64,000 nucleotides of DNA, taken from the NCBI GenBank assembly GCA_016182805.1, contig JACPFV010000023.1, positions 1,422 through 65,421 of the forward strand, in the 5' to 3' direction. The DNA comes from Gammaproteobacteria bacterium (lineage in GTDB: Bacteria; Pseudomonadota; Gammaproteobacteria; Nevskiales; Nevskiaceae). The first letter of the stretch is position 1, and every line of letters begins with the position of its first letter. The notes under the pieces are model-generated. The model ran no database searches. It was not told the DNA's origin and was given only the letters and a program-made list of their open reading frames with translations. This document shows positions 2,950 through 9,940 of the stretch, piece by piece. The translations under genes were made by a program, and so were the position numbers.

Positions 2950-5004
2950 TCAGTCGGCGTCTTCCCTGCGGCGCTTGGCGTACGCCGTCATCAGTTCGTT
3001 TTGCAGCTTCGGCGGCACCGGCTCGTAGTGGCTGAACTCCATCGTGTAGACCCCTTCGCCGGCGGTCTGCGCCTTGAGCCGGTGGTGATAGTCGCCCAGC
3101 TCCGACATCGGCGCCTGCGCCTCGATCAGGGCGTGGTTGCCCGGCAGCACGGTCTGGTTCGAGATGCGCCCGCGCATGCCGGACAGGTCGCCGGCGATGG
3201 CGCCGATCGCCTGTGCCGGCGCGGTGATGGTCAGGTTCACGATCGGTTCGAGCACGATCGCGTGCGCGTTGGCGATGGCGTCCATGAACGCCTTGCGGCC
3301 GGCGGTCGAGAAGGCCACCTCCTTGCCGTCCACCGGGTGGGTCTTGCCGTCGTAGACGATCACGCGCACGTCCTGCAGCGGGTAGCCGGCGACCGCGCCG
3401 TTGTCCAGCACCTGGCGCACGCCCTTTTCCACCGCGGGGATGAACTGCGAGGGGATCGCGCCGCCCACGACCTCGTCCACGAACTCGAAGCCGCCGCCGC
3501 GCGGCAGCGGCTCGATGCGCAGGAACACCTCGCCGAACTGGCCGGCGCCGCCGGTCTGCTTCTTGTGGCGGTGGTGGCCGTCGGCGTTGCGCGTCACCGT
3601 TTCGCGGAACGGGATACCCGGCGGCCGCGTCTTGATCTCCACGTGGTAGTTGGACTTCATGCGCTCCAGCACCACGCGCAGGTGCTGCTCGCCGTTGCCG
3701 TAGAGCACGGTCTCGTTCAGCGAGGGGCTGTGCTCGATGCGCAGGCTGGGGTCCTCGGCCTGGCACTTGTGCAGCGCGTCGGCCAGCTTCTGCTCGTCGC
3801 CGTGCCGGGCGGGCGCGATCGCCACGCCCAGCATCGGCGGCGGTGCCGCGGCCGGCCGCAGGTGGAAGTGGTCCTCGTCGTGCGAGTCGTGCAGCACGGC
3901 GTCGAAGTGCACTTCGTCCACCTTGCCGACCGCGCCGATGTCGCCGGGAATGCAGGACGCGACCTCGATCGTGTTCCGGCCCTGCATCTTGTACAGGTGC
4001 GCGACCTTGAACGCCTTGCGCGCGTCGCCGACGAACAGGCCGTGCCCGGCGCGCACCGTGCCCTGGTGGACGCGGAACACGCCGAGGCGGCCGACGTAGG
4101 GGTCGATGCCGACCTTGAACACGTGCGCGACGGCATGGCGCGCCGGGTCCGGGGCAACCGGCACCGGCTCGGCGGCAGAGCCCGCGCCCTTCACGAACGG
4201 CGGCGGGTTGGCCTCCATCGGATTGGGCATGAGCTTGACGATCAGGTCGAGCAGTTCCGGGATGCCCACGCCGGCCGCGGCCGAGGTGAAGCACACCGGG
4301 ACCAGATGGCCCTCGCGCAGCGCCTTCTCGAAAGCATCGTGGAGCTGCTGCGGCGTCAGGTTTTCCTCGCCGGCGAGATACGGCTCGAGCAGGGCCTCGT
4401 CCACCTCCACGACCTGCTCGACGATACGGCGGTGCGCCTCCTCCACGCTGGAGAAATCCGTCGGCGGTCCGCTGCGCGAGAAGAAACAGTCGACCACCTT
4501 GCGGCCGCCCTCGGCCGGCAGGTTGATCGGCAGGCATTCGGCGCCGAAGCTCTCGCGGATCTGTTCCAGCAGCAGCGGCAGGTCGGTGCCCGCGACGTCC
4601 AGCTTGTTGACGACGATGATGCGGTCCATGCCGCGCCGGGCGGCGGCGTCCATCATGCGCCGCGTGGCGATCTCGATGCCCGCCGGGGCGCTGACGACCA
4701 CCGCGGCGGTTTCCACCGCGGGCAGGGCGGCGACGGCGCGGCCCAGCAGGTCCGGATAGCCGGGCGTCACCAGCAGGTTGACGTGGCGGCCCGCATGGTC
4801 GAAGTGGCACAGCGTTGTATCCACCGAGTGCTGCAACTCGCGCTCCAGCGGGTCGGCGTCGCAGACGGTGGTGCCGCGCGCCAGCTCGCCCATGGCGGGA
4901 ATCGCGCCGGCGCGGAACAGCAGCGCCTCGGCCAGCAGAGTCTTGCCGGCGGCCGCGTGACCCACCAGGGCGAGATTGCGGATGTCGGCGGTGCTGTAAG
5001 CCAT
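2950..5004 (-). CDS. Elongation factor G-like protein (EF-G2/FusA2 type)
   Basis: MAYSTADIRNLALVGHAAAGKTLLAEALL...VVNKLD...; EF-G domain IV/V motifs (KQTGGAGQFGEVFLRIEP, MRGRISNQTVLPGNHALIEAQAPMSELGDYHHRLKAQTAGEGVYTMEFSHYEPVP). Confidence 0.92.
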   Translation of the reverse strand: MAYSTADIRNLALVGHAAAGKTLLAEALLFRAGAIPAMGELARGTTVCDADPLERELQHSVDTTLCHFDHAGRHVNLLVTPGYPDLLGRAVAALPAVETAAVVVSAPAGIEIATRRMMDAAARRGMDRIIVVNKLDVAGTDLPLLLEQIRESFGAECLPINLPAEGGRKVVDCFFSRSGPPTDFSSVEEAHRRIVEQVVEVDEALLEPYLAGEENLTPQQLHDAFEKALREGHLVPVCFTSAAAGVGIPELLDLIVKLMPNPMEANPPPFVKGAGSAAEPVPVAPDPARHAVAHVFKVGIDPYVGRLGVFRVHQGTVRAGHGLFVGDARKAFKVAHLYKMQGRNTIEVASCIPGDIGAVGKVDEVHFDAVLHDSHDEDHFHLRPAAAPPPMLGVAIAPARHGDEQKLADALHKCQAEDPSLRIEHSPSLNETVLYGNGEQHLRVVLERMKSNYHVEIKTRPPGIPFRETVTRNADGHHRHKKQTGGAGQFGEVFLRIEPLPRGGGFEFVDEVVGGAIPSQFIPAVEKGVRQVLDNGAVAGYPLQDVRVIVYDGKTHPVDGKEVAFSTAGRKAFMDAIANAHAIVLEPIVNLTITAPAQAIGAIAGDLSGMRGRISNQTVLPGNHALIEAQAPMSELGDYHHRLKAQTAGEGVYTMEFSHYEPVPPKLQNELMTAYAKRRREDAD

Positions 5005-5081: not shown

Positions 5082-5297
5082 CTACGCGCAGCTCAACTCC
5101 AGCTCGTACGCTTCCAGCATCCCGGCTCCGAAGCAGGCGAATATCACGCGCCGCAAGGTACCGGGAAGGCCCAGGAAGCTCCGCACTTCTCGGACTGCGA
5201 TCCGCACCGCTCGTTCAATCGGGTAGCCGTTGACGATGGCGTCGACGGCAAGGCGGGCGATGTCCGCCTGGATGGCCTCCACCTGAGCTGTTTTCAC
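5082..5297 (-). pseudogene. Internally deleted macrodomain protein (71-aa remnant ORF)
   Basis: N-terminus VEAIQADIARLAVDAIVN matches the macrodomain start (IxxIxGDIxxxxVDAIVNAAN); it jumps directly to GYPIERAVRIAVREVRSFLGLPGTLRRVIFACFGAGMLEAYELEL, the typical macrodomain C-terminus. The central ADP-ribose-binding part is absent. Confidence 0.7.
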
Positions 5298-5379
5298 CGC
5301 TGGACTCCGGGCCGACGGCGCTTGAAAATACGCGGGTTGTCCCCATTTTGCGCCAAGGCGCCGATTTGTCGAGATTCCG

Positions 5380-5658
5380 ATGCCGATCTACGAGTACCAC
5401 TGCCAGTCCTGCGGCCATGAAACCGAAATCATGCATCGCATGTCGGACCCCAGCCCGACCGAGTGCCCGCAGTGCAAGGCGCAGTCCCTGACCAAGGTGG
5501 TGTCCGCCGCCGGCTTCCGCCTCGGCGGCGGCGGCTGGTACGAGACCGACTTCAAGTCCGGCAAAAAGAAGAACATCGCCGCCTCCGACAGTTCCGGCGG
5601 CGGCGCCTGCACGCCGGGCGGCTGCGGCAAGGCCGGCTGCGCGGCCAACGCCGCCTGA
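5380..5658 (+). CDS. FmdB family zinc-ribbon protein
   Basis: MPIYEYHCQSCGHETEIMHRMSDPSPTECPQCKAQSLTKVVSAAGFRLGGGGWYETDFKSG. Confidence 0.92.
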   Translation: MPIYEYHCQSCGHETEIMHRMSDPSPTECPQCKAQSLTKVVSAAGFRLGGGGWYETDFKSGKKKNIAASDSSGGGACTPGGCGKAGCAANAA

Positions 5659-7573: not shown

Positions 7574-9940
7574 ATGAAATCGACCTTTACGATACGGCGC
7601 GCGCCGGCGCGGCTGCTGCTTTTGGTTGGCGCCTTGGCGCTTGTGGCCGGCTGCGAGAGCATCGGCAAGGGCAACAAGCTCGAAAAGATCGAGATCGTGC
7701 CCTTTTCGGGACGGGTCAACGCGGACGGCAGCTATCGGGTATACCAGTGCTTTCGCGACGGCCTGTCCTTGCGCGGCACCTTTACCGACGGCACGGTCGG
7801 GTTCTTCACCAGCCGGGCGACGTGGACTTCGAGCGATTCCGGCGTCGTCCGCGTCACGAACGCCGACGAGCCGCTGATCGCCGTTTTCAAGCCGAATGAC
7901 CGCAAGTTCGGCTTCAATCCGATGAACGGCGCGTTCTACTCGCGCGGAACGCTGATCCCGGTCGCGGCCAGCGACGACGTGGTGACGATCACGGCCGAAT
8001 TCGCCGGCCTCAAGGACGAGATCAAGGTCCGGGTGCGTACGCCGGGCATCAAGATTTCCCCGAGCCCGATCTCGGCCCTGACCGGCCGCGACCCCGGGAC
8101 GGAATTCGTCCTGGGCGTCGGCAGCCGCCAGGACTTCACCGTGCTGGCCGACCTCGACGGCGAAATCGTCGAAGCGGCGGCCGCCGGCAGCTTCGACCCG
8201 GTGTTCAACTCGGTGATGAACCCGGTGCAGTGGTCGTTCGTCGGTGGCACGGCGACCGATCCGAAACTGGTGATCCTCGAGGACGGCGCCGACAACAAGC
8301 AGGGCACGGAAGACGACATCGACGCTTACCGCGCGTTCTCGGCCGATGACGGCAACGACAGCGACGACGACGACTCCGCGATGCTCGATCCGCTGTCCGG
8401 GCTGGTGACGGCCCAGTCCGCGGGCGGCGCCATCACGCTGCGCGCGAGCCTGTCGGCCTGCGACGCGGAGATCGTCGCCGATGCCGAGGCGCTGGCGATT
8501 CCCGACGTAACGGTGCAGGTCGCGGGCTTCGCGGACGCCGATCCGCTGACGATCGCGCGCGAGGCGGGATTCGAGAACCGGCCCCTGGTGATCGGGACCA
8601 ACGAGGTCATCCCGGTGACGGGCAAGCTGGATGTCGGCGGCAAGACGCAGGATTTGGGCAGCCAGGTCCGCTTCGACGTCAACGACAAGACGCAATGCGG
8701 CGACACGAAGGCGGGCGAGGTGTGCGTCAACCCGACCTTCCGGTTCGACATTTCTCCGCCGAATGCCCTGGAAACGGCGCCGGGCGCGCAGGATGGCGGA
8801 GCAGCCAGCATCGATGCCTGCTTCCCGATCTACCGGCCGGTCGCCACCCTCAGCGCCGACGGCGCCGGCAGCGCCATTTCGGCGACTGCGCCGCTCACTG
8901 TGACCTTGGACGCGTCCGGGTCCCTGCATCCCGATCCGAGCGTGGAGCTGGCGACGTACGCCTTCGATTTCGGCGACGGCGAGGACGGCGTCATGCAGAA
9001 GACGCCGACGGTATCGCACACCTACTCCAAGACCGGCACCTTCACCGCGACCGTGCGCGTCACCGATGCCTGCGGCCAGCAGAGCATCAACACCGGCGCG
9101 GTGCAGATCGTGGTTGGCTCCACCCCGACCAACGCGGTGCCGCTGGCGGCGCTGTCGGTGGTCCAGAACGCTCCGCCGGCGCCCCTGACTGCGACGCTGG
9201 AAGCGGTCGACTCCAGCGCCCCGGACTCCGATTCCGGCGACAAGATCGCCGTCTATGAATTCAGGCCCGGGGACGACACCGTCATCCGGCAGAAGGAATC
9301 CACGCTCCGTTACGTGTATCGGACGGCGGGCGCGTATTCGCCCAGCTTGAAGGTATTCGACAGCCGCGGCATCGGCAGCGGCGATCCGGCCGCCGACCCT
9401 GATACGGCGGCCGTGACTGTCGCCGGTGCCATCGTGCCGACGCCCCGTTCGAACTCGCTTTCGGTCTGGGCGAAGACCGGTACGCTGGAAAGCATCACCC
9501 TGTGCCCGCGCTCAAATCTGAATGCCGACCTGACGTGCGCCAAGCGGAGCGTGACGGAGGCGGCGTTCACGTTCCCCGGCGCGCAGTTCGAGGCGATCGG
9601 CTCGTTCGACATCGGCCTGCAGAAGGTCACGCGCTACGTGACCTGGTACGCCCAGCCGCGCGACGAGGCCGACGGCGAGGAACCCTGCGACACCGAGGAC
9701 GACGGGTCCGACATCGCCGGTTTGAGCAACGCGTTCCTGACGCGGGGCCTCCTCAGCTACTTCCGCAACGTCGCGGAGCCGGTGGCGCCGCTGGAGGGGG
9801 AAACCCTCGACATCTGCGCGCTGCCCGGCGCTCCTTTCGACAGCGCCGACACGCCCAGCCCCGCGACGCTGGTGGTCGCTCCCTGCGACCCCGACGCGGC
9901 GGGGGTCTGCCCGGAAGTCCCGCCGGACGACGAAAACTGA
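7574..9940 (+). CDS. PKD-domain-containing putative lipoprotein
   Basis: 788 aa; signal peptide with lipobox LVAGC; PKD-type repeats (YAFDFGDGEDGVMQKTPTVSHTYSKTGTFTATVRVTDACG; YRTAGAYSPSLKVFD). Confidence 0.85.
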   Translation: MKSTFTIRRAPARLLLLVGALALVAGCESIGKGNKLEKIEIVPFSGRVNADGSYRVYQCFRDGLSLRGTFTDGTVGFFTSRATWTSSDSGVVRVTNADEPLIAVFKPNDRKFGFNPMNGAFYSRGTLIPVAASDDVVTITAEFAGLKDEIKVRVRTPGIKISPSPISALTGRDPGTEFVLGVGSRQDFTVLADLDGEIVEAAAAGSFDPVFNSVMNPVQWSFVGGTATDPKLVILEDGADNKQGTEDDIDAYRAFSADDGNDSDDDDSAMLDPLSGLVTAQSAGGAITLRASLSACDAEIVADAEALAIPDVTVQVAGFADADPLTIAREAGFENRPLVIGTNEVIPVTGKLDVGGKTQDLGSQVRFDVNDKTQCGDTKAGEVCVNPTFRFDISPPNALETAPGAQDGGAASIDACFPIYRPVATLSADGAGSAISATAPLTVTLDASGSLHPDPSVELATYAFDFGDGEDGVMQKTPTVSHTYSKTGTFTATVRVTDACGQQSINTGAVQIVVGSTPTNAVPLAALSVVQNAPPAPLTATLEAVDSSAPDSDSGDKIAVYEFRPGDDTVIRQKESTLRYVYRTAGAYSPSLKVFDSRGIGSGDPAADPDTAAVTVAGAIVPTPRSNSLSVWAKTGTLESITLCPRSNLNADLTCAKRSVTEAAFTFPGAQFEAIGSFDIGLQKVTRYVTWYAQPRDEADGEEPCDTEDDGSDIAGLSNAFLTRGLLSYFRNVAEPVAPLEGETLDICALPGAPFDSADTPSPATLVVAPCDPDAAGVCPEVPPDDEN

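Follow-up and report, generated by a model that had tools for sequence, protein, structure and literature searches.

In the MacroD enzyme of Oceanobacillus, the distal ribose and the pyrophosphate are held by N30, G37, D40, V133 and Y134, among other residues, and H44 assists (PMC5413906). The E. coli macrodomain protein YmdB (NF001664/PRK00431; structures 5CB3, 5CB5 and 1SPV) is reported to bind RNase III (PMC7050489). The 64,000-nucleotide stretch of DNA analysed here, referred to as the window, has an open reading frame of 71 codons which is collinear with YmdB at its two ends only. Residues 1-23 of this putative remnant correspond to YmdB 1-22, and residues 24 onwards correspond to YmdB from its GYP motif (residue 127) onwards. 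The 104 YmdB residues in between (AANPSL...STGVY), among them the catalytic loop and the one covering the pyrophosphate, have no counterpart. The features of the region are as follows.

2950..5001, minus strand: EF-G-like GTPase (NF009891, 925 bits), downstream of the remnant and on the same strand
5082..5297, minus strand: putative macrodomain remnant, 71 aa, start GTG, stop TAG, YmdB/MacroD-type homology of both arms
5085..5228, minus strand: C-terminal arm, residues 24-71, from GYP to the C-terminus (phmmer, NCBIfam, alignment to relatives)
5220..5237, minus strand: proposed deletion junction, ATCGTCAAC joined to GGCTACCCG, with a common ACG/imperfect repeat across it; 297-318 nt absent relative to relatives
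5229..5297, minus strand: N-terminal arm, residues 1-23, first strand and VDAIVN strand, 57% identity to E. coli YmdB 1-22; junction after nt 69
5298..5379, no strand: intergenic region of 82 nt separating the remnant from the divergent fmdB
5380..5658, plus strand: FmdB-type zinc ribbon protein, followed by aspS; marker of the orthologous locus in relatives

The two arms of the reading frame

The ORF (5297..5082, minus strand) contains no internal stop and starts with GTG rather than ATG. Its translation is VKTAQVEAIQADIARLAVDAIVN up to the junction and GYPIERAVRIAVREVRSFLGLPGTLRRVIFACFGAGMLEAYELELSCA after it. The sequence-only reading had described the frame as the two ends of a macrodomain joined without a stop, and the homology searches bear this out; the translation quoted there omitted the last three residues (SCA). 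A GGAG lies 7 nt ahead of the GTG start, and a sigma-70-like site (TCGACA-16-CAAAAT) at 5372-5345 is directed towards the remnant, both being consensus matches only. The stretch separating the remnant from the EF-G-like gene contains a hairpin, but as a fold or terminator it does not go beyond shuffled sequence. Further along the plus strand, a large predicted lipoprotein is encoded at 7574-9940, between aspS and nadA.

Both arms match macrodomains. The YmdB chains in the PDB (5cb5, 5cb3, 1spv) were matched by phmmer in two stretches with E ~2e-5, and NCBIfam NF001664 (O-acetyl-ADP-ribose deacetylase) was also matched in two stretches (E 3.5e-9), at 36 bits, the cut-off being 200. In a pairwise search the alignment of YmdB 1-22 with remnant residues 1-23 has an E of 2e-9. 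The Pfam search of the 71-aa product gave no match, and the product does not reach the curated cut-off of the macrodomain family (PF01661, NF001664). As judged from these alignments, the match of both parts is far beyond chance, and the predicted 71-aa protein is confirmed as the start and the end of a YmdB/MacroD-type macrodomain fused in frame.

Neither arm shows decay. When a profile was built from the corresponding arms of intact relatives, with the tested row left out each time, the joined arms of the remnant scored 96.1 bits, which is mid-range among the 74-107 bits of the intact relatives and supports descent from the MacroD-type/YmdB family. The remnant keeps 16 of the 17 positions that are conserved in at least 85% of relatives; the single loss is a T to A change in the DIT motif. 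The arms thus resemble those expected of a gene that was intact until recently. In the remnant, third-position GC is 0.79, lower than the 0.93-0.95 of fmdB, the EF-G-like gene and aspS. The intact macrodomain genes of two genomes from the same family (G005 and G016) are also below their fmdB in this measure, by a smaller margin.

The missing segment and the locus in relatives

In G005 and G016 an intact macrodomain gene and a divergent fmdB are separated by 117 nt, and aspS, nadA and glyA lie beyond, as in the window. On gene order and sequence, this fmdB-aspS locus is orthologous to that of the remnant. The intact MacroD-type gene has the same position and orientation to fmdB and aspS, the same start region and the same C-terminus as the remnant, but is full-length, has every motif and carries 300 nt more between the two points that the remnant joins. 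Every homologue from the family and order that was studied in detail is full-length, with 99-106 residues (297-318 nt) between these points. In 29 intact homologues the segment that is missing here measures 297 nt in 5, 300 nt in 20 and 318 nt in 4. Six extra residues ahead of the CPTGEA motif, shared by four same-family macrodomains of one genus, g3 (L002, L027, L029 and L032, in G014, G052, G054 and G043, respectively), explain the 318-nt spacing. The only congener compared (G001, 76% complete) has no macrodomain, EF-G-like gene or fmdB, and it is uninformative on the deletion because the whole locus is absent there. The EF-G-like gene has no match in G001 at E 1e-30 and is not near a macrodomain in the relatives examined. 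In G005 and G016, no counterpart of the large lipoprotein was noted in the listed frames of the aspS-nadA interval.

The alignment places the equivalents of N30, G37, D40, H44, V133 and Y134 within the deleted block; the earlier Asn of the VN pair (N27) is retained. The block begins directly after VN, so the catalytic loop NAAN...GGGVDGAIH is absent, and only GYP is left of the pyrophosphate loop ISTGVYGYP with its active-site Tyr. Since the residues for the distal ribose and the pyrophosphate are gone, hydrolase activity of the 71-aa product is not expected. The product, if made, would not hydrolyse ADP-ribosyl or O-acetyl-ADP-ribose esters, and the gene would therefore be a null allele heading for loss. 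The sequence-only reading had stated that the ADP-ribose-binding core was removed, which holds true of the sites for ribose and pyrophosphate. It had also suggested comparing the locus in relatives, and the intact gene beside the divergent fmdB in G005 and G016 is the result.

Other short forms of the macrodomain were not found among 41 relatives or among 58 family, 85 order and 369 class members, the last drawn evenly from a larger group and searched with a cut at E 1e-9. Strong homologues in relatives sit in full-length frames, including two other class matches. An unrelated conserved family of 71-aa proteins, which would have spoken against the macrodomain origin in the sequence-only reading, is likewise absent from relatives (2 genus, 58 family, 85 order and 369 class genomes). 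The junction pattern DAIVNGYP, in any codons, occurs in 27 stretches across one genome per species for 84,980 species, a set from which records of the window's own or a very near genome may be left out, and none of the 27 is a macrodomain; many look ClpB- or thioredoxin-like when the translations are judged by eye. The exact 31-nt junction is absent from viral contigs and a tblastn search of the remnant in plasmids found nothing, so nothing points to an origin from a phage or plasmid. In the literature, the phrase 'truncated macrodomain' was not found, and among the titles listed none was relevant to macrodomain pseudogenes.

Origin of the probable deletion and competing explanations

The most likely course of events would be one internal in-frame loss of ~300 bp from the local YmdB/MacroD-type gene. 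In several relatives the left point reads GTCAACGCC (VNA) and the right point reads GTCTACGGC (VYG), with 7 of 9 bases alike and in the same codon phase; the junction in the window reads GTCAACGGC. These relatives include the syntenic G005 and G016, and fewer bases are alike in others. In G005 and G016 only about 1% of the in-frame sites located 150-450 nt downstream resemble the left point equally well; over all relatives the median of this background fraction is 0.10, and across that full set the microhomology is a trend only. A likely origin, as far as the breakpoint sequences indicate, is slippage during replication or a microhomology-mediated joining of the two imperfect repeats. Bacterial genes that were disrupted through deletions between short direct repeats offer a parallel, since here too an internal segment is missing and the breakpoints carry a short, imperfect repeat; compared with these genes the remnant has nothing distinctive, and its frame happens to be kept. 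An in-frame outcome is expected for about one third of deletions. Because both arms are undecayed, the event is probably fairly recent and occurred in this lineage.

We consider it quite probable, from the comparison with the intact locus, that the remnant is the local YmdB/MacroD-type gene after one such ~300-bp internal in-frame deletion and is a recent null allele. An artefact of assembly or binning is unlikely, although it is the less improbable of the two alternatives. The genome is a draft of 65 contigs with 79.7% completeness, and an intact gene could be present with its arms joined by the assembler, or the deletion could exist in a minority strain only. A collapse would, however, need reads that bear the junction, and the breakpoint shares only ~3 exact bases (the 7/9 repeat being imperfect), far below any assembly k-mer; the common sequence is thus too short for assembly collapse to be likely. 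The missing segment is also absent from the rest of the assembly, where no second macrodomain was found within its 79.7%.

It is quite improbable that the product is a functional mini-protein with a strand-helix-strand-helix fold, in which VDAIVN replaces the deleted strand before GYP and which perhaps binds a partner such as RNase III, as YmdB is reported to do in E. coli (PMC7050489). The intact ORF and conserved positions are in its favour, as is the AlphaFold2 fold obtained with a homologue alignment. That model has a low-confidence helix followed by E15-19, H27-42, E50-54 and H58-70, with a pLDDT of ~80-90 across most of the C-terminal arm, and overlays macrodomains (Foldseek, TMq ~0.7-0.87). 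Without an alignment, however, AlphaFold2 returns an all-helix model of low confidence with a pLDDT of 67.6, so it is the alignment's intact homologues that supply the macrodomain-like fold; the model leans on them and is no demonstration that the peptide folds. The loss of the catalytic and ribose/pyrophosphate sites, the lack of a mini form in the other genomes searched and the third-position GC, which gives no sign of strong codon selection, also argue against a functional mini-protein.

An undisturbed ORF, a plausible start signal and a promoter-like site would be expected of a functional protein too, and this counts against the null allele. The undecayed arms are compatible with both recent loss and a selected mini-protein and do not separate the two by themselves. 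The sequence-only reading had offered a clean in-frame deletion still preserved as an ORF or a minimal protein serving a new role. The former is upheld by the intact orthologous locus in relatives, the ~300 nt missing and the undecayed arms; the latter gained no positive support, and a second example was not found. That the product is expressed and kept for a novel activity, such as that of a small YmdB-type form which binds a partner or acts as a dominant negative, seems very improbable.

Meaning of the locus

Should the 71-aa product have a function, it would mean that a macrodomain fragment can persist after losing its sites for ribose and pyrophosphate, for which there is no support here. 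The locus is probably a case of ordinary recent gene loss rather than a novel type of protein, and its most likely meaning is a loss-of-function allele in a draft genome. It is a clear example of how a deletion that keeps the frame leaves a short ORF which can be annotated and may be mistaken for a new small protein.
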